A DNA stretch of 64,000 nucleotides, from contig PLRS01000081.1 of assembly GCA_003164035.1 (NCBI GenBank), forward strand, positions 62,001 to 126,000, in the 5' to 3' direction. The translations under genes and the position numbers were made by a program. The DNA comes from Bryobacterales bacterium (GTDB lineage: Bacteria; Acidobacteriota; Terriglobia; Bryobacterales; Bryobacteraceae). Of this stretch, positions 23,816 to 41,390 are shown piece by piece; the first letter of the stretch is position 1; each line of letters starts with the position of its first letter. The notes beneath the pieces are model-generated. The model did not search any database and was not told where the DNA came from. It saw only the letters and a program-made list of their open reading frames with translations.

Positions 23816-24153
23816 GTTTCCCACCCCCCAAAGAGTCGGTCTTGGAGCCCAGGCAAGAGTGACCTCACCCGCCCGCACCCGAATCAGCCGCGGAAACGTC
23901 GGGTAGAGACTCGCCGCGGTGCCGAAAGGTACCGGCGCCACGCTTGGCTCTCGGCTTTCGATTCTACATCCAACCGCCTCGGTCGCACGGTTTTGTCTCG
24001 GCTTGTCTTGATTTTCGCAACAAATCGGTACACAATATCACTCGTTGTCACTCGCTGACCGGTTTGGGACTGAAATTCCGCAGAAATGTCCCGGCGGCAG
24101 TGGGCGATGGTTGGGTGGGGTCTTCAACCGAGTACGTTGAAAGAAGGTGGGAA

Positions 24154-27100
24154 ATGTCACGGTGGTACAAGTTTCTTCTCCTCGCTGCGTTGCCTGTATT
24201 CCGACTTTGCGGGCAACAATTCGGCGAAGTCACAGGCACAGTCACGGATGCCAGCGGTGCGGTCATTGCGGGAGCCCAGGTTCGGGTGACGAATACCGCA
24301 ACACAACAAGCTCGTAGTGCGGCCAGCAACGACTCGGGCGTTTATTCCGTTCCCTATCTGGTGCCGGGCATGTATGCGGTCCGCGCCGAGAAATCCGGAT
24401 TCAAGGTCACCACACAGTCGGACGTGGAGGTACACGTCGGCGATGTGGCGCGTATCGATTTCCGGCTGGAACTCGGCGAGATCACCCAGCAGGTAGAGGT
24501 CACCGGCGGAGCGCCGCTGCTCAACACCGAATCGGTCGCCATCGGCAGCGTCATCGAATCGACGCAAATCGTGAACCTTCCCCTCAACGGGCGCGACTAT
24601 CTGAGTCTGGTGATGTTGAGTTCCAACGCGGTGGGAGAAATGACCGGTGGCGGTGGCAGTGGCTTGCAGGGCGGTGTGCGCTCTTCCGAGGCGATCTCGG
24701 TGGCTGGGCAGCGCCTGGAATACAACCACTATACGCTCGATGGGGTGGAAAACACCGATCCCAACTGGAACTCCTACATCATTCATCCATCGGTTGATGC
24801 GATTCAGGAATTCAAAGTGCTGACGGGCGTCTACTCAGCCGAGTTCGGGCGGGGAGCCTCGCAGATCAACGTCAATACCCTGCCTGGGGCGAATGCCTAC
24901 CATCTGGCGGCTTTCGAGTTTTTGCGGAATGACGACATGGACGCCAAACAATGGGAGCAGGTGGGCGCGAAGAATCCGTTTCGGCGCAACGATTACGGCT
25001 TCACGCTGTCGGGGCCGACCTCGATTCCCAAGATATTCAATGCCAAGAACCGGCTTTTTTTTATGTCGAATTTCGAAGCGCTCCGCGACCGGACCACTTA
25101 CCAGGAGATTGATCCGGTAGCTACCGACCTGATGCGCGCCGGCAACTTCACGCAAATCAGCCAGATCATTTACGATCCCCTGACGCGGGTCTACAATTCC
25201 TCCGGAGCGGGCACCGCCAACCCCTTTCCGGGAAACATAATCCCCGCCTCGGAGATCAGCCCGCAAACGGTGAACCTGCTCAAGTACTATCCGACCACGA
25301 CCATCCCGGGCGACACACTGAACGCGCGCAATTTCCATCGCAACGCCCTGTCGCCCACCGATTCCACCCAGTTCAACCAGCGAATCGACTGGGTCGAGAA
25401 CGCCAAATCGACCTGGTTCGGCCGTTTCAGTTGGGGCAACGATTTGCAAGAGGCCGCCGGCGCCTTTTACGGCGGAAACACGATTACCGGGACTATCGTT
25501 CGCCAGGCCGTGTTGGCCAATACTCGCATTCTGAGTCCCTCCATGGTGAACGAAGCCCGCTTCTCCTGGAATGAGTTCGAAAACAATCTGACCGGCGATT
25601 ACGCCAACACAACCAACGTGCAGGGCACGCTCGGCATCACTGGCCTGGCGGCTCCCAGTCCCTTGGCATACGGCATCCCGGCGATCGGTCTTGGGGAGGG
25701 TATCACTGGCTACGGCGGGATCACTCCGTGGATTACCAGGGACAATAACTTCCAGGGGACCGATACCGTCTCGATTCTCAAAGGCGGCCACAGCATCAAA
25801 GTGGGCGCCGACCTTCGCCGCCAGCGGTACGACCAGTATGGGAACCAGAAGACCGATGGCGAATTCGATTTCGACGGCCAGTCCACCTGCAATCCGGCCA
25901 GTTGCGCCTCGAGCGGTTTCATCTTTGCCGATTTCATGGTCGGTCTGCCTTACCAGGCCTACCGTGCGCTGGGCGAAGCCAACGCCATGATGCGCACCAC
26001 TTTCTTTGCCGGTTACGTCCAGGACGACTGGAAGGTCAGCCGAAAGCTTACTCTGAACCTCGGTTTACGCTACGAAAACGAGCGCCCGTGGGTGGACAAG
26101 TACAACGACATGATGAACATCCAGGCGTTTGACACGGGCGTGGGCCCGGCCGGAGCTTATCTGATTCCCAACGCGCAGGCACCGATCTTCACCAGACCGG
26201 GAAGCGGGAGCTTTTACCCCAACAGCGCGTGGGAATTCGGGCAAGGACAGGCGACGCAAGTCAGCAACGCCATGGGGCGAGGCCTGGTCAACCCCAGCGA
26301 CCGCAATTGGGGGCCGCGCGTCGGTCTGGCCTACAACCCGGCGCAACACTGGAGCATCCGGGCCGGTGTCGGGATGTTCTACGTGCAGGACATCACTAAC
26401 ATCGTTTTCGATATGGCCCGTAATCTGGCAGCTAAGGACGGGTATGTGATCCCCGTCAACGCGCGGACCACTTATCTTTCTTCTCCGTGGGCCACCGAGT
26501 CTGGCAGTCCCAATTGCCCGGGCTTTGGCGGGGTGTGCCTGGCGGCGCCTCAAGTCCAGGCCACCGATCAGAACAACCGCACGCCGTACGTGGAACAGTT
26601 TCTGCTGAACATACAGCGCGAATTGACACACCACATCGTAATGGAGGTCGGATACCTGGGGAATGAAGGACACCACCTGGACCGTTACCAGGTCCTGAAC
26701 CAGGCGATTCTTCCGAGCGGGCCGAACGACCATAGCAGCACCGCGTCGCGCCGTCCCTGGCCGTTATACGGCAATCTTCAGGAAGTGGCGGGCGTGGATA
26801 ACTCCAACTACCACGCCCTCAATTGGAAACTGACCCAGACGCCGGTCAAGGGCTTGGCCTACACGGTTGCGTTCACCTGGTCGAAGGCCATCGACGAGGG
26901 CAGCGCCACACGCACCAATTCCGGCGATACCCTTTGGCCGAACAACAGCTACACGCTGAACACCATGCGCGGGCTTTCGCAATTCGATGAGGGGCGCCGG
27001 TTTGTGGCTTCCTACGTGTACAATCTGCCGATCGGGCGGGGCACGAGCTTACTCGGCGCTGGCGCCGCCGGCGCGATCCTCGGCGGCTGGCAGCTCGGAG

Positions 27101-27531
27101 GCATCCTCACCCTGGCGGACGGCACGCCGGAACAGGGCTCCACGTTGGGCGATACCACCAACATCGGCAACCTAAACGATTTCCCGGAGGTCACGGGAAT
27201 TAGTCCGGTCCCGGCGAACCGCTCCGCGAGTAACTACTTTAATGCGGCCGCATTCAATTTCACCAGTCCGACCCTGTCCTATCTACCGGGTGATGAGGGA
27301 AGAAACGTGCTGTTAACTCCCGGGGTCGCAAACTTCGATGCCTCGCTGGTGAAGCTGATCCATATCCGAGAGAGCCACGCGGTGGTCGTCCGGTTTGAGG
27401 CCTTCAACTCAGTCAACCATCCCAACTGGAATGTGCCGCCTAACGATCCCCGGTCCCCGGCCACATTCGGCATCGTGACCAGCGCCAGGGCGATGCGGCA
27501 GTTGCAAGTCGCGCTGAAATATAGTTTTTGA
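24154..27531 (+). CDS. Oar-like TonB-dependent receptor
   Basis: A 1125-residue outer-membrane receptor. A signal peptide (MSRWYKFLLLAALPVFRLCG) precedes a carboxypeptidase-regulatory domain (GEVTGTVTDASGAVIAGAQV) at about 25-110, then a plug (VNLPLNGRDYLSLVMLSSNA) and a long barrel with Oar-like strands, ending QLQVALKYSF. The start at 24154 has AAGAAGGTGG upstream; the frame is open for 210 bases more but without homology. The family imports or senses large ligands and is highly expanded in Solibacter-type genomes. It is followed on the same strand by the secreted aldolase and DUF1080 genes, so they may serve the same substrate, probably a plant or microbial polymer fragment. Confidence 0.93.
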   Translation: MSRWYKFLLLAALPVFRLCGQQFGEVTGTVTDASGAVIAGAQVRVTNTATQQARSAASNDSGVYSVPYLVPGMYAVRAEKSGFKVTTQSDVEVHVGDVARIDFRLELGEITQQVEVTGGAPLLNTESVAIGSVIESTQIVNLPLNGRDYLSLVMLSSNAVGEMTGGGGSGLQGGVRSSEAISVAGQRLEYNHYTLDGVENTDPNWNSYIIHPSVDAIQEFKVLTGVYSAEFGRGASQINVNTLPGANAYHLAAFEFLRNDDMDAKQWEQVGAKNPFRRNDYGFTLSGPTSIPKIFNAKNRLFFMSNFEALRDRTTYQEIDPVATDLMRAGNFTQISQIIYDPLTRVYNSSGAGTANPFPGNIIPASEISPQTVNLLKYYPTTTIPGDTLNARNFHRNALSPTDSTQFNQRIDWVENAKSTWFGRFSWGNDLQEAAGAFYGGNTITGTIVRQAVLANTRILSPSMVNEARFSWNEFENNLTGDYANTTNVQGTLGITGLAAPSPLAYGIPAIGLGEGITGYGGITPWITRDNNFQGTDTVSILKGGHSIKVGADLRRQRYDQYGNQKTDGEFDFDGQSTCNPASCASSGFIFADFMVGLPYQAYRALGEANAMMRTTFFAGYVQDDWKVSRKLTLNLGLRYENERPWVDKYNDMMNIQAFDTGVGPAGAYLIPNAQAPIFTRPGSGSFYPNSAWEFGQGQATQVSNAMGRGLVNPSDRNWGPRVGLAYNPAQHWSIRAGVGMFYVQDITNIVFDMARNLAAKDGYVIPVNARTTYLSSPWATESGSPNCPGFGGVCLAAPQVQATDQNNRTPYVEQFLLNIQRELTHHIVMEVGYLGNEGHHLDRYQVLNQAILPSGPNDHSSTASRRPWPLYGNLQEVAGVDNSNYHALNWKLTQTPVKGLAYTVAFTWSKAIDEGSATRTNSGDTLWPNNSYTLNTMRGLSQFDEGRRFVASYVYNLPIGRGTSLLGAGAAGAILGGWQLGGILTLADGTPEQGSTLGDTTNIGNLNDFPEVTGISPVPANRSASNYFNAAAFNFTSPTLSYLPGDEGRNVLLTPGVANFDASLVKLIHIRESHAVVVRFEAFNSVNHPNWNVPPNDPRSPATFGIVTSARAMRQLQVALKYSF

Positions 27532-27637: not shown

Positions 27638-28639
27638 ATGAAGAGTATTTCGAAGGGAACGTGTTGGCTGGGCTTGCCGGTGGCACTGGTATTCGGGGTT
27701 GCGGTCACGCTGGCCCAAAACGGGGAGTCGGCCTACAAGCCGAAGCGGATCAATCGAGCCGTCGAGTTGTTGGCGGACGGCCAGCCGATTTATTATACGG
27801 GCTCTCACACGGGAGCGCCGGGCGGGGGCGCGAGCGCGGAAGCCAGTTTTGAACAGGGTAAGAAGGACGCGCAGACTTACGCCGACTATATCAGCTACGA
27901 CATGGAACATACCGCTTACGACATTGTCGGGCTGACTGCATACATGAAGGGGCTGGTGGCGGGCGGCCCGACCAGGAGCGGCCATCGCACGCCGGCGGTG
28001 ATCGTCAATGTGCCTGTGAATGGCTTGGATGAAGCGTCGGTGCGCGCCAATGCCTGGATGTTCCAGCAGGTACTGGCCGCGGGTGTGCACGGAATCATGC
28101 TCACCCACGCGGAAACGCCGGGCGCCATTCGGGAGTTCGTTGAAGCCGTCCGCTTTCCAATCCACAAAGAGGGGATCGGGCCGCTGCTCGGTGAGGGTCA
28201 CCGGGGCGAGCACGGATCCGCCCCGGCCGCGGCGATCTGGGGAATTTCGTTACAAGAGTACGAGCAAAAGGCCGATCCGTGGCCGCTCAACCCGAACGGG
28301 GAGCTTCTGCTGGGCGTAAAGGAGGAAGATAAGTACGCCCTGGCGAACGTGGAAACCAACCTGCAAGTGCCGGGCATCGGAATGGCGGAGTGGGGGCCGG
28401 GAGACATGGCGCTGTCGCTGGGCGTACCCTCGGGGCGGGACGCAGTCAGCGACCCCAGAATGGTGGCTGCCCGAGCGAGAGTATTGGCGGCATGCAAAGC
28501 CAACCACGTCGCTTTCCTGAATTCCCTGGCTCCCGGTAATGCAATCGATATGATCAAGGAAGGCGTCATGGTGGGTCCGGCTAGCCGGGAGACTACCGAA
28601 ATCGGCCGTAAGTTCACCAAACGCCAGATGCCCTGGTAG
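27638..28639 (+). CDS. Secreted HpcH/HpaI-type aldolase
   Basis: A 333-residue protein with a signal peptide (WLGLPVALVFGVAVTLAQ). The mature part matches the HpcH/HpaI class II aldolase fold: DYISYDMEHTAYDIVGLTAY, HGIMLTHAETPGAIREFVEA and WGPGDMALSLGVPSG. Metal-binding E and D are present in DMEH and later. HpaI enzymes cleave 2-keto-4-hydroxy acids to pyruvate and an aldehyde in the cytoplasm; export is unusual. GGAAAGG lies upstream of the ATG. Positioned after the TonB receptor, before a DUF1080 protein and an R1 repeat. Reaction and substrate unknown. Confidence 0.8.
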   Translation: MKSISKGTCWLGLPVALVFGVAVTLAQNGESAYKPKRINRAVELLADGQPIYYTGSHTGAPGGGASAEASFEQGKKDAQTYADYISYDMEHTAYDIVGLTAYMKGLVAGGPTRSGHRTPAVIVNVPVNGLDEASVRANAWMFQQVLAAGVHGIMLTHAETPGAIREFVEAVRFPIHKEGIGPLLGEGHRGEHGSAPAAAIWGISLQEYEQKADPWPLNPNGELLLGVKEEDKYALANVETNLQVPGIGMAEWGPGDMALSLGVPSGRDAVSDPRMVAARARVLAACKANHVAFLNSLAPGNAIDMIKEGVMVGPASRETTEIGRKFTKRQMPW

Positions 28640-29665: not shown

Positions 29666-31021
29666 ATGATCAATCTCCGGCGAGCTTCCGAACGCCCTCC
29701 CAAGGCACCGGCCGATCCAGCCGACCTACCTCCCGCCAGCCGGGTGCGCTATCGCGTATTGGGTTTAAGTTTTCTGATGGCGTTCCTGATGTACATGGAA
29801 CGCGGCGCCATCGGCGCGGTGGCTCCGGCCATCATGCGCGAGTTCCACGTGAACAAGATCTCCATGGGCTGGGCGGTTTCGGCGTTCAACTGGTCCTACG
29901 CTCTGTTTCAGGTGCCGGGGGGCTGGATGGCCGACCGGTTCGGTCCGCGCCTCATTCTGGCCGGGGCCATGGCGTGGTGGTCGGTTTTCACCGCGGCCAC
30001 GGGGTTCACGTTCAACGTCTCTTCGTTGGCCGCCACGCGGTTTCTGTTTGGCGTGGGCGAAGCGGCGGCGTTCCCGGCCGGATCGCGGGCGCTGGTGCGC
30101 TGGCTGCCGGTCCGGCGGCGCGCCTTCGGACAGGGATTCCAGCATTCCGGCTCGCGTCTGGGCGCGGCGCTGGCTCCGGCCCTGGTGGTGACGCTGACCG
30201 CGCTGTCGGGTTGGAGGCCGGTCTTCTACATTTTTGGGGTAGTGGGAATCGCGTGGGCCTTCGCCTGGTATTGGTATTATCGCGATTATCCGCGCGAGCA
30301 CGCGGGCGTCAACGCCGAAGAGTTAGCCATCCTGGGGACGGCGGGCTCGCGGCCTCCGTCCGCGGCGCGGCCCGCCGTGCCCTGGGGGCCGATTCTACGC
30401 AGCCGCGATTTGTGGTACCTCAGCACGATTTATTTCTGTTACGGCTGGGTGCTGTGGTTGTATCTGGCCTGGTTTCCCAGTTACCTGCGGGAAGCGCGCC
30501 ACTTCACCCGGCTGGGGATGGGGTTGGCGAGCCTGCCTCTGCTGGCGGCGACTGTTACCAATGTGATGGGCGGGTTGTTATCGGACCGGCTGGCCCACCG
30601 TTGGAACGACTTGCGCCGCGGCCGGTTGATCGTTTCGATCGGCGGCTTCGCCATAGCGGGGATCGCCCTGTTACCGGGGGTTTTGGCGGCCAGCCCCATC
30701 GCGGCGATGATTTGTCTGACCATCGCGCTGGCTGGGCTGGAACTTACTGTCTCGGTGTCGTGGGCCATCTCGATCGATATCGGCGGCGACTTCAGCGGCT
30801 CGGTTTCTTCGGTCATGAATACCTGGGGCAATGTGGGCGGGGCTGTGTCCGCCGTTATGGTCGGCTATCTGGCTACGCTGCTTGGATGGACCTCGCCGTT
30901 TCTGGTGGCCAGCGCCTTGTGCCTGTTCTCGGCGCTGGTTGTCAGCCGCATCGATCCGCGCCGCTCGGCCACCGGCCAACCTGTGAGAGAATACAATACT
31001 TCGGGGAGCACACCGGTATGA
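29666..31021 (+). CDS. MFS transporter, anion:cation symporter (ACS) type
   Basis: A 451-residue, 12-helix permease. The loop 2-3 region is PGGWMADRFGPRLILAGAMA, and the protein carries W-S-x-x-F-Q-x-P-G-G and FLFGVGEAAAFPAGSRAL, typical of the ACS group (hexuronate, tartrate, glucarate transporters). It has no Shine-Dalgarno. Its last codons overlap the ferredoxin gene start as ATGA, so it belongs to the same transcript. The substrate is presumably an acid handled by the following Fe-S proteins and amidohydrolase, but this is inference. Confidence 0.9.
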   Translation: MINLRRASERPPKAPADPADLPPASRVRYRVLGLSFLMAFLMYMERGAIGAVAPAIMREFHVNKISMGWAVSAFNWSYALFQVPGGWMADRFGPRLILAGAMAWWSVFTAATGFTFNVSSLAATRFLFGVGEAAAFPAGSRALVRWLPVRRRAFGQGFQHSGSRLGAALAPALVVTLTALSGWRPVFYIFGVVGIAWAFAWYWYYRDYPREHAGVNAEELAILGTAGSRPPSAARPAVPWGPILRSRDLWYLSTIYFCYGWVLWLYLAWFPSYLREARHFTRLGMGLASLPLLAATVTNVMGGLLSDRLAHRWNDLRRGRLIVSIGGFAIAGIALLPGVLAASPIAAMICLTIALAGLELTVSVSWAISIDIGGDFSGSVSSVMNTWGNVGGAVSAVMVGYLATLLGWTSPFLVASALCLFSALVVSRIDPRRSATGQPVREYNTSGSTPV

Positions 31022-31836
31022 GAATCGACCCTGCTAAGTGCGTGGCCTGCGGCAACTGCACTTATGTGTGTCCCATGGGCGCGATCTACATCGATCCCGC
31101 CATCAAACGCGCCACCGTGAACCGCGACGAGTGCGTGGAGTGTTATGCCTGTTACAACGGTCTGAGCCAGGAGCACCTGAATCCGACGCTCGTGCGGACG
31201 ATGCGCAGGGTGTTCCAAATGATGCGGCTGCGTTTCGACCCCGAACCCGACGTCTGCCCGACGGCGGCGTTCGCGCCCGAGGATCTCGTCTGGCCGAGAG
31301 TGGTGCGGCGCGCCTTTTCCGACCCGCGCGTGCCGCACGAATCGACCGGCGTGGAAGGGCGCGGCACCGAAGAGGTGAAGACTAACGACATCAGCGGCCG
31401 GGTGAAGGTGGGCGAGGTGGGATTCACCATCGAATTCGGCCGGCCGGGAGTGGGCGTATGGTTCCGTGAGATCCAGGAGATGGCTTGGGTGCTGGCGCGC
31501 GCCGGAGTGGCGTTCGAAAAGAAGAACCCCATCACGTCGCTGATGTCCGACGTCTCCAGCGGCACTATCCGTGAAGATATCCTGAATGAAAAGGTACTGT
31601 CGGCGATTCTCGAAATCAAGGTCCCGGTGGCGCGCACCGAGGAAGTGATCCGGCTGGTGTGGGACGTGGAGAAGAGACTGGAGACGGTGGTGGCGCTGGG
31701 GGTAGGAACGCGGTGCGACGCGGACGGGGAAGAACGCACGGTGGCGCCGATTCTGGAACAGTTGGGATACAAGCTGGAGCGGGCCAAGACCAATACGGGA
31801 CTGGGGCGAATCACCAACGCCGCGCCGGTGAGTTAA
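31018..31836 (+). CDS. Ferredoxin-like protein with unusual second cluster site and unrecognised domain
   Basis: A 272-residue protein from ATG 31018, overlapping the MFS stop. Residues 1-20 hold a canonical [4Fe-4S] motif (C8, C11, C14, C18 in CVACGNCTYVCP). The second motif begins normally (C39, C42, C45 in DECVECYACY) but its fourth cysteine-proline is at residue 80 (DVCPTAAF), with about 34 residues inserted. From about residue 120 a ~150-residue domain follows (VKVGEVGFTIEFGRPGVGVW, AWVLARAGVAFEKKNP, AILEIKVPVARTEEVIRLVW), which I do not recognise. It could be a substrate- or cofactor-binding partner. It probably functions with the next protein. Confidence 0.75.
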   Translation: MRIDPAKCVACGNCTYVCPMGAIYIDPAIKRATVNRDECVECYACYNGLSQEHLNPTLVRTMRRVFQMMRLRFDPEPDVCPTAAFAPEDLVWPRVVRRAFSDPRVPHESTGVEGRGTEEVKTNDISGRVKVGEVGFTIEFGRPGVGVWFREIQEMAWVLARAGVAFEKKNPITSLMSDVSSGTIREDILNEKVLSAILEIKVPVARTEEVIRLVWDVEKRLETVVALGVGTRCDADGEERTVAPILEQLGYKLERAKTNTGLGRITNAAPVS

Positions 31837-31914: not shown

Positions 31915-32592
31915 ATGACTAACACTCTACATCGGTATGGAGACGCGGCCAGTTTCCACGACGATTACGTGGTTTTCGCCATCTGCAGCCGTGGCAAGAA
32001 CGACGAGGATTCGGTCCCCAAGCTGCGCCGGTTCCTGGAGATGGCGCTGCCGTTCCAACCGGTGAACCTGGGCGACGCCAGGCACGGCGGGGCGCTGCGG
32101 CCGTCGAAATCGATGCACCCGACGTCGCACTGGAAGCGGGAAGCGAAACCGGATTTTCAAGCCGTGATCGACGGCCTCGACACTCCCACCACGGCGGCGG
32201 CGGTATTCGACAACCGCGTGGCGGCGGAAGATTTCGTGAAGAGCGTGAAAGCCGCGGACCTGGGCCTGAGCGTGAATATCTCGACCTCCATCGATGGCGC
32301 CGAACAGTGCTGCCATGCGGCAGGTATCTGCCGCCACAGCGTGGGTTACTCACTCGGGTTTGAGGGCAAAACCGGGCATCTTCCCAATGAAGACGTGCTG
32401 AAGCTTTCCACCATGTGCGGACACGGGATGGTGAGCGCTTCGTTTGCCAAGAAGATGGTGGATTGGGTGAAAGAAGGGCGGCGAACCCCGGCGGAGGCGG
32501 TGACGTACCTGGCCCGCTTCTGCTCTTGCGGAGTGTTCAATCCGGCGCGCGCCAAACGGATTCTCGAAGATGCTCGCACCAGAACGAAGTAG
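31915..32592 (+). CDS. Cysteine-rich protein of unknown function
   Basis: A 225-residue soluble protein, without signal peptide, preceded by GGAGAGA. It has seven cysteines: C24 (VFAICSRGK), C132, C133 and C139 (EQCCHAAGICRHSVGYSLGF), C168 (STMCGHGMVS), C203 and C205 (FCSCGVFNPA). Several are next to His or Gly, as in metal or Fe-S binding proteins. No family is recognised. It sits between a ferredoxin-like gene and a secreted amidohydrolase, which starts inside its last codons (23-base overlap). The arrangement and the cysteines suggest a redox enzyme that receives electrons from the ferredoxin-like protein. Confidence 0.7.
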   Translation: MTNTLHRYGDAASFHDDYVVFAICSRGKNDEDSVPKLRRFLEMALPFQPVNLGDARHGGALRPSKSMHPTSHWKREAKPDFQAVIDGLDTPTTAAAVFDNRVAAEDFVKSVKAADLGLSVNISTSIDGAEQCCHAAGICRHSVGYSLGFEGKTGHLPNEDVLKLSTMCGHGMVSASFAKKMVDWVKEGRRTPAEAVTYLARFCSCGVFNPARAKRILEDARTRTK

Positions 32593-33892
32593 AATTGCCT
32601 GTTTGGCGGCGCTGCTCGTGGGCGCCTCTGCGCTTCATGCCGAGGTCAAGGTGCTGAAGGGCTTCACCCTGATCGACGGCTCCGGCCGCCCGCCGCTGGC
32701 CAACGCCGCCATGGTGATCGACGCCGGCCGGATTGTCTGGGTGGGCCCGGTGGCGCAACTCAAGGTACCGGCCGGGGTGGAGACGATCGACCTCGCCGGC
32801 AAGTACGTGATGCCCGGCATCATCAACCTGCACGGGCACCTCGGCAACACCATCGGCCTGACCCAGGATGCCAAGTTTTTCACCCGCGAAAACGTGGAGA
32901 AGAATCTCGATACCTATGCGTCTTACGGCGTGACGGCCATGCTCAGCATGGGTACCGACCAGGACCTGATTTTCGAGATTCGCGACCGGCAGCGCGCCGG
33001 CAGGCCTTCGACGACGCGGGTTTTCACAGCCGGCCAGGGGTTCATCTTCAAGGGCGGCTACGGCGGCATTGCGGGAGTGAACCAGGGCGTATCCAGCGTC
33101 GCCGAAGTGGAGCCGGCGGTGGCGGTGCAGGCGCGCAAGAAAGTTGACATGATCAAGCTTTGGATGGACGACGAACTGGGCAGGCTTCCCAAGATGCCCT
33201 ATCCGATCTCGAAGGCCATTATCGACGCCGCGCACCGACACCACCTGCGCGCGGCCGCGCACATCTTCTATTTGCAGGACGCGAAGCAGTTGACCGAATA
33301 CGGCGTGGACGGGCTGGCCCACAGCGTGCGCGACAAGCCCATCGACCAGGCGCTCATTGAGAGCATGAAGAAGCACGGCACCTGGCAGTTGGCGGCGACG
33401 CTCTCGCGCGAGGCGTCCATGTTCGTCTACGCCGGCCCCGCCCCGTTCCTCACCGATCCTTTCTTTATGCGCGGCGTGTCCCCGGTGGTCGTCGAGACGC
33501 TGCGCACCCCGGCGTATCGGGAGTCGATTTCATCCGGCGCCCATTTCAGAGAATATCCGGCCTTTCTCGAGACCGCCAAGAGGAACCTCAAAACACTGGT
33601 GGATGCGGGCGTGAAGTACGGTTTCGGCACCGATTCCGGCCCTCCCGGACGATTCCCCGGCTATTTCGAACATTGGGAAATGGAACTGATGGTGGAAGCC
33701 GGGCTGACGCCGGCGGAGGTTCTGACGGCGGCCACGCGCAATGCGGCGGAGTTTCTGGGAGCGAACGACCTCGGCACCTTGGAACGCTCCAAATGGGCCG
33801 ACCTGATCGTGCTCGACCGCAACCCGCTCGACGACATCAGGAACACCAGAACAATCGACGCGGTCTATATCGCCGGCAACCGGGTGAAATAA
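32570..33892 (+). CDS. Secreted amidohydrolase (imidazolonepropionase-like)
   Basis: A 440-residue metal-dependent hydrolase with a Sec signal (MLAPERSRIACLAALLVGAS, cleavage near ALHA). Metal ligands fit the amidohydrolase superfamily: H-x-H in PGIINLHGHLGN, a lysine in VDMIKLWMDDE, histidines in RAAAHIFYLQDA and DGLAHSVRD, and the catalytic aspartate in YGFGTDSGPPG. The C-terminal EFLGANDLGTLERSKWADLI and VLDRNPLDDIRNTRTIDAVY are typical of the family's closing beta sandwich. The substrate is unknown (a prolidase, imidazolone or cyclic amide hydrolase is possible). It overlaps the previous gene by 23 bases and is presumably co-translated. Confidence 0.88.
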   Translation: MLAPERSRIACLAALLVGASALHAEVKVLKGFTLIDGSGRPPLANAAMVIDAGRIVWVGPVAQLKVPAGVETIDLAGKYVMPGIINLHGHLGNTIGLTQDAKFFTRENVEKNLDTYASYGVTAMLSMGTDQDLIFEIRDRQRAGRPSTTRVFTAGQGFIFKGGYGGIAGVNQGVSSVAEVEPAVAVQARKKVDMIKLWMDDELGRLPKMPYPISKAIIDAAHRHHLRAAAHIFYLQDAKQLTEYGVDGLAHSVRDKPIDQALIESMKKHGTWQLAATLSREASMFVYAGPAPFLTDPFFMRGVSPVVVETLRTPAYRESISSGAHFREYPAFLETAKRNLKTLVDAGVKYGFGTDSGPPGRFPGYFEHWEMELMVEAGLTPAEVLTAATRNAAEFLGANDLGTLERSKWADLIVLDRNPLDDIRNTRTIDAVYIAGNRVK

Positions 33893-41057: not shown

Positions 41058-41390
41058 GGCCGTGGCGGGGAGGCAAAGGGCGACCGCCGGCGGATGGGGA
41101 AGGGATTGCGGAGGCCGGCGATTTGTGCGTCGTTGTGCATTTTTGTGCAGCTTTCGGAGCCGATCGAGAACGCCGAGATTGGGCGGCGAAAGACAAGCTG
41201 GCGGATGGCCAGGTATTGCCGAGGCCGGTGATTTGTGCGCCGTTGTGCATCTTTGTGCACTTTTCGGAGCCGATCGGGAACGCCGAGATTGGGCGGCGAA
41301 AGACGGGCGCGGGCGGATGGGGCAGGTATGCCGGGGCCGGCGATTTGTGCAGCGTTGTGCATTTTTGTGCACCTTTCAGAGCCGGTCATG
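41058..41390. repeat. Tandem ~110-bp repeats upstream of pgk
   Basis: About 2.7 copies of a unit beginning GAGGCCGGCGATTTGTGC. Full units start at 41111 and 41221 and a third at about 41333, giving spacings of 110 and 112 bases; a partial unit lies before the first. Each contains three TTGTGC-like hexamers in a row (TTTGTGC, GTTGTGCA, TTTGTGCA) and CGATC(G/A)G-GAACGCCGAGATTGG. The repeats lie 60-390 bases upstream of the pgk start, so they may hold regulatory sites, or be a simple array of no function. Confidence 0.85.

Follow-up and report, generated by a model that had tools for sequence, protein, structure and literature searches.

A strongly conserved ferredoxin with a split second cysteine motif and its adjoining partner gene in Acidobacteriota

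In the 2[4Fe-4S] ferredoxin fold, cluster I is held by the first three cysteines plus the cysteine of the last CP, and the fourth cysteine of the first motif completes cluster II; in this fold, no single cluster is bound by a CX2CX2CX3CP motif on its own. Ferredoxins of the Alvin type (from A. vinosum, and Fdx1 of P. aeruginosa) are described, in the excerpt of PMC2984482 used here, as carrying an insertion of 6–8 residues and a C-terminal piece of roughly 20–40 residues; the insertion lies between the second and third cysteines, as in the spacing CX2CX8CX3C given in the excerpted part of PMC11430716. Table 1 of that article gives 36 spacings for 2[4Fe-4S] ferredoxins and 12 for Alv ferredoxins, all ending in CX3C, and the 2[4Fe-4S] rows that the excerpt of PMC8928951 prints in full end in the same way. 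A different arrangement is found in L-aspartate semialdehyde sulfurtransferase (L-ASST), in which, according to excerpts of two reports, a NIL-ferredoxin subunit (MA1822) works with a DUF39/COG1900 subunit (PMC12068725, PMC5764234).

Here we analyse a ferredoxin gene in a stretch of 64,000 nucleotides from a Bryobacterales bacterium, called the window throughout (Table 1). Residues 1–88 of the protein match the Pfam families Fer4_10 (39.1 bits; cut-off 25.5) and Fer4 (35.1 bits; cut-off 21.1), passing both cut-offs, and cysteines stand at positions 8, 11, 14, 18, 39, 42, 45 and 80, with an additional one at 233. Like the clostridial-type 2[4Fe-4S] ferredoxin of C. acidurici (1fca), the protein has eight cysteines in order and CP after each fourth. 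Its second motif, however, reads CX34CP and not CX3CP, with 34 residues between C45 and C80 where 3 are usual (a net insertion of 31), and about 190 extra residues follow at the C terminus. With Alvin-type ferredoxins, as far as the excerpts describe them, it shares an insertion between ligands of the second motif and a C-terminal extension; here, by contrast, C39xxC42xxC45 is uninterrupted, the 34 residues come between cysteines three and four, and an entire domain makes up the extension. A gap of this length before C80, with so many residues after it, places the protein outside the Alvin type.

Table 1 Features of the locus in window coordinates
Feature	Position	Strand	Remarks
MFS transporter	29666..31021	+	MFS_1 218.7 bits; its stop codon TGA and the ferredoxin start codon ATG overlap as ATGA
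Split-motif, putatively dicluster ferredoxin with C-terminal domain of predicted ACT/PII-like fold	31018..31836	+	272 aa plus stop (ORF and translation); start ATG at 31018, stop TAA at 31834-31836
First motif C8xxC11xxC14xxxC18, then P19	31039..31071	+	cysteines in 113/113 rows
Second motif, cysteines 1-3, C39xxC42xxC45	31132..31152	+	113/113 rows
34-residue insert, residues 46-79, ending FxPEPDV	31153..31254	+	predicted helices 44-49, 56-68
C80-P81, remote CP cysteine	31255..31260	+	113/113 rows
Strongly conserved loop, residues 109-124, STGVEGRGTEEVKTND	31342..31389	+	
Domain of predicted ACT/PII-like fold, about residues 130-234	31405..31719	+	includes invariant C233
Tail motif RAKTNxGLG, residues 255-263	31780..31806	+	conserved (alignment A2)
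Partner protein	31915..32592	+	225 aa, MTNTLHR...; invariant C168, H170, C203, C205
Amidohydrolase	32570..33892	+	Amidohydro_1 78.7 bits; overlaps the partner's end

Among the families searched, none accounts for the whole ferredoxin. Searches of Pfam, NCBIfam, PADLOC and PDB sequences return its generic ferredoxin part, and a BrxP match spans only residues 6–47. The best NCBIfam match, to HgcB/HgcAB-like ferredoxins, likewise covers the ferredoxin part only and, at 30.3 bits, falls far below the 99-bit cut-off, outside membership. The nearest architectural analogy would be the NIL-ferredoxin subunit of L-ASST, which, in the excerpts, also fuses a ferredoxin to a small-molecule-binding regulatory domain and acts with a second subunit; the likeness is one of working, and the split-motif ferredoxin is not a member of that family. 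NIL (PF09383) found no match in the ferredoxin rows under filters that may drop weak matches, and appeared in 0 of 21 genomes of relatives, with 8 of 14 control genomes positive; 73 partner rows gave weak matches to 15 Pfam families, and DUF39 is not one of them. In a limited literature search, we recognised no published description of the split-motif ferredoxin.

The split motif is real and strongly conserved. A preliminary description of this DNA had reported a normal first motif followed by a second one split into C39, C42 and C45, a 34-residue gap and C80P, which the translation bears out, and had pointed to homologues as the place to see whether the insert and C80 are kept. We aligned 113 complete proteins (95 distinct sequences) from 117 loci with a ferredoxin match, the rows having been gathered by searching relatives at the protein level, by scanning genome contigs (80 of 213 relatives) and by further genome searches. 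Four rows were left out: L105 and L022 reach the region, both with CP, and L115 and L117 are without the N-terminal half. All eight motif cysteines, P81 and C233 are invariant across the 113 rows, and no homologue among them lacks C80 or has a normal second motif. The ending is CX34CP in 110 rows and CX33CP in the remaining three; two rows read DICP in place of DVCP, with a gap of 34 by count. Because the patterns of the contig scan (KCVAC[AG]NC and [PY]VCPMGAI) were taken from the first motif, the invariance of C8–C18 is partly built in for the rows found in that way; C39–C80 were not selected.

Conservation extends into the insert, where S50, E52, P56, R60, R63, R72, F73, P75, E76, P77 and D78 are invariant in all 113 rows. 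Measured against the window sequence, the insert had a pN/pS of 0.21 and C80–F85 one of 0.04, compared with 0.15 for residues 1–38 and 0.27 for residues 86–108; given these low values, the reading frame is that of a constrained protein, and the conserved frame and low pN/pS together rule out chance or a frame error as the origin of the split.

For a check that used no ferredoxin query, we started from an 88-aa protein that resembles only the C-terminal module of the partner, and fetched 11 loci in 10 genomes, which added two further families. Every one of the 11 has a split ferredoxin upstream, with all nine cysteines, a first motif of the form CX2CX2CX3CP and a gap of 34 residues. One locus (L160) is on the same contig as L070, which had already been counted; the ten new loci encode ferredoxins 59–64% identical to the window protein. 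The tail motif reads RGKTNLGLG in 8 of the 11. As for C233 (31714–31716), which lies outside the cluster motifs, its invariance in the alignment holds in all 11 of these loci as well.

That C80-P81-T82 keeps the CP form and the position of a normal ligand, in 113 rows and in 11 loci reached through the partner module, makes it highly improbable that C80 is no ligand and is conserved for some other reason. On such an account, a three-cysteine [3Fe-4S] cluster or a site-differentiated [4Fe-4S] cluster would bind either a substrate or a ligand that the partner supplies, and this account could draw on the spare invariant cysteine and histidine residues of the partner, on the invariant and unexplained C233, and on the lower confidence with which residues 71–80 are modelled. 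We instead take C80 to behave as a ligand, as the preliminary description had it: it is invariant, proline follows it and it occupies the CP position in the predicted ferredoxin fold.

A model of the ferredoxin was built with AlphaFold2 on an 80-row alignment (pLDDT 82, pTM 0.79; means of the five models 67 to 82; mean pLDDT of residues 71–80, 65). In VIA-align, which was read for ranges and not for residue pairs, 54 of the 55 residues of the C. acidurici ferredoxin 1fca can be superimposed at 1.4 Å on the span 1–88 of this predicted model (Z 7.5); Foldseek returned no match at E ≤ 0.001 for either the ferredoxin or the partner model. Because 54 residues align over a span of 88, the insert would be looped out and its C80 end should sit at the position of the last CP cysteine. 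The insert, described earlier as charged and helical, is indeed basic and, in the predicted model, partly helical. Where the preliminary description probably erred was in grouping C80 with C39, C42 and C45, since in the 2[4Fe-4S] fold the C80 position completes cluster I. No unusual cluster is needed, because in that fold the last CP cysteine ligates cluster I and C18 cluster II; the motif is split in sequence, yet two ordinary four-cysteine [4Fe-4S] sites probably remain, and the model gives no indication of a change in cluster type.

A ferredoxin in which each motif is self-contained, with one cluster bound by C8–C18 and a second by C39, C42, C45 and C80, as the preliminary description implied, appears improbable to us: the predicted model fits 54 of the 55 residues of a two-cluster ferredoxin, and in that fold CX2CX2CX3CP does not hold one cluster alone. 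Its precedent lies in the single-cluster ferredoxins, for exactly CX2CX2CX34CP is given for the subtype 4Fe-4SST8 in Table 1 of PMC11430716. Our literature search on the split spacing led only to that article and to PMC8928951, both as excerpts, and there to the single-cluster form.

Beyond the cluster region, residues 130–234 of the model form a beta-alpha-beta-beta-alpha-beta domain that VIA-align, working on the predicted structure, places near PII/PstA and ACT proteins at Z ~6, a value that can reflect a common arrangement. The first-ranked Foldseek match of the ferredoxin model was an aspartate kinase regulatory subunit (E 0.017). We call the domain ACT/PII-like by predicted fold only and do not claim ACT membership by sequence: Pfam ACT matched none of 30 rows of the domain, and an hhalign comparison with 12 ACT domains from the same genome was marginal: the probability was 2.2, and 2 of 150 column shuffles scored at least as high. 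Scattered matches to 15 Pfam families (best E 0.0074, in 1 of 30 rows) and a PDB match to a glycerate kinase (E 0.016) were not taken as kinship. When 41 genomes were searched with the domain, all 22 matches fell on the ferredoxin gene, one copy of which is truncated at a contig end.

Two segments flanking this domain are conserved and partly unplaced in the model, as expected of loops that bind a partner or a ligand. In the loop 109–124, 14 of 16 positions are invariant (alignment A2) and pLDDT is under 50 at 109–112 and 116–119; the tail motif at 255–263 runs into a region where pLDDT is under 50 from residue 257. That these loops are poorly placed in a monomer model, like partner-binding segments, would also suit a simpler account in which the ACT/PII-like domain is a mere scaffold and the ferredoxin a plain electron carrier dedicated to its partner, with no ligand gating. 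The lack of an ACT sequence match and a fold match at a Z that a common arrangement can produce lean the same way. The first strand–helix turn, by contrast, carries an invariant G141-R142-P143 and G146 (alignment A2), which resemble the RPG turn of several of the 12 ACT domains compared by hhalign, and on balance we consider the scaffold account somewhat unlikely.

The ferredoxin is paired with a second gene. Neighbourhoods were compared at 92 loci (87 distinct), and the partner directly adjoins the ferredoxin on its downstream side in 89 of the 90 rows with enough downstream sequence. The exception is a ferredoxin without a partner (L097:994-1779), which is followed by a different gene. In 80 of 108 pairs the partner start overlaps the ferredoxin stop; in the window, a gap of 78 bases lies between them. 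Since the partner gene follows so regularly, a role of the insert in partner binding is plausible, and this half of the function first proposed for it is tenable; the other half, a change of cluster type, is unsupported.

Of the 114 partner matches, 3 were left out of the alignment, and C168, H170, C203 and C205 are invariant in all 111 complete rows. So is the segment TNTLHR immediately after the start (31918–31935), which is unusual for an N terminus. The predicted partner structure (pLDDT 86, pTM 0.86) has a ferredoxin-like N-terminal domain and a helical C-terminal part; its best VIA-align matches, to PII-like SbtB and small ferredoxin-like proteins, reach Z ~5, which does not suffice to assign a family. 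Above the cut-offs, Pfam and NCBIfam gave nothing, and the PDB held no sequence relative (best E 1.5). DEP (best E 0.014, matched by 13 of 73 rows, with the window protein scoring under the cut-off) and DUF406 (4 of 73 rows, best E 0.0063) were considered as family assignments, and neither was taken as a relationship.

The C-terminal part of the partner is a separable module, because a standalone version exists: a protein of 88 aa with the CxHG-x(~30)-CxCG pattern is encoded at L119:3899-4165 on the minus strand, in genome G007. Similar module ORFs occur in L120 and L121 (genomes G924 and G975), where the frame ends in a further CTCG tail. Judged from its residue pattern, the module probably binds metal.

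The genes around the pair vary. In 50 of 85 rows, the gene immediately before the ferredoxin encodes an MFS transporter; the other 35 have no adjacent MFS gene. In L155 (5638-8438), its place is taken by the TRAP genes DctM, DctQ and DctP, directly upstream of the ferredoxin, and L156 (6344-8776) appears to have the same upstream arrangement. An amidohydrolase comes immediately after the partner at 8 distinct loci, which make up 9 of 55 rows, and is divergent upstream in 5 of 55; it is a possible further member of the transcription unit. An HpcH/HpaI aldolase was found in 2 of 55 rows and an FMN-dependent dehydrogenase in 3 of 55, counts for which the queries came from the window and from L126 and for which most of the stretches L125–L136 were wider than the other rows. 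Taken together, the neighbours suggest organic-acid use, with no enzyme neighbour constant.

Several observations stand beside these counts. The window's HpcH/HpaI aldolase (27638–28639) reads as secreted, and its relatives near the pair are those in L126 and L130. In L104, genes for a KDPG/KHG aldolase and a pfkB-family kinase are found close to the pair. Elsewhere in the window, 23944–27531 encodes a large protein of the outer membrane that contains CarboxypepD_reg and beta-barrel domains, and a tandem repeat of 110-base units (2.7 copies) occupies 41089–41384.

Searches with the partner gave matches in 90 of 200 genomes of the order, a few of them short or weak, and at class level 26 of 200 genomes had the partner module. 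In a sample of the window genome's own phylum, at least 3 of 396 genomes had a match at E ≤ 1e-20, a lower bound because no more than six candidates per genome were scored in the rows listed. Three alphaproteobacterial MAGs (L102–L104) also carry the pair, with ferredoxins 72% and partners 51–54% identical, and horizontal transfer is a possible source of these copies; among 398 genomes from the phylum of one of them, no case besides that genome was found. A mobile-element origin was considered and set aside: viral contigs contained no relative, and plasmids yielded a single ferredoxin match over 14% of the query and none for the partner.

On this evidence, we propose, at what we would call even chances, that the protein is a dicluster ferredoxin responsive to a ligand, and that it forms one half of a so far undescribed redox module in which two proteins handle an imported organic anion. 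C80 would complete cluster I with C8, C11 and C14, and C18 would complete cluster II with C39, C42 and C45. The insert between C45 and C80 would form a conserved helical excursion beside cluster I and offer a docking surface for the partner. The C-terminal ACT/PII-like domain may act as a sensor, with an amino acid or an organic acid as its possible small ligand, and the partner would be the other half of the complex, likely its catalytic or electron-accepting side. Together, the pair might perform or gate a redox step on the organic anion imported by the neighbouring MFS or TRAP transporter. Any pathway assigned to the pair is a guess, because the transporter neighbours vary, the ferredoxin of L097 is without a partner and no enzyme neighbour is constant. 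A bolder version of the proposal, which we advance tentatively and think rather unlikely, is a new two-component metalloenzyme of Acidobacteriota in which an ACT-gated ferredoxin docks through its insert onto a hitherto undescribed C-x-H...C-x-C metalloprotein and carries out redox chemistry or sulphur transfer on an organic acid.

As the split motif indicates, an excursion of 34 residues can be accommodated between cysteines three and four of a motif in a ferredoxin of the 2[4Fe-4S] type, with no cysteine lost; for the dicluster form, this CX34CP spacing is absent from the published spacing table (PMC11430716). It belongs to an unannotated protein pair that is frequent in one order of Acidobacteriota and present in further families of the class, and the pair as a whole may be newer than the ferredoxin variant alone. 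With only two small proteins involved, the chemistry of the pair is directly testable.
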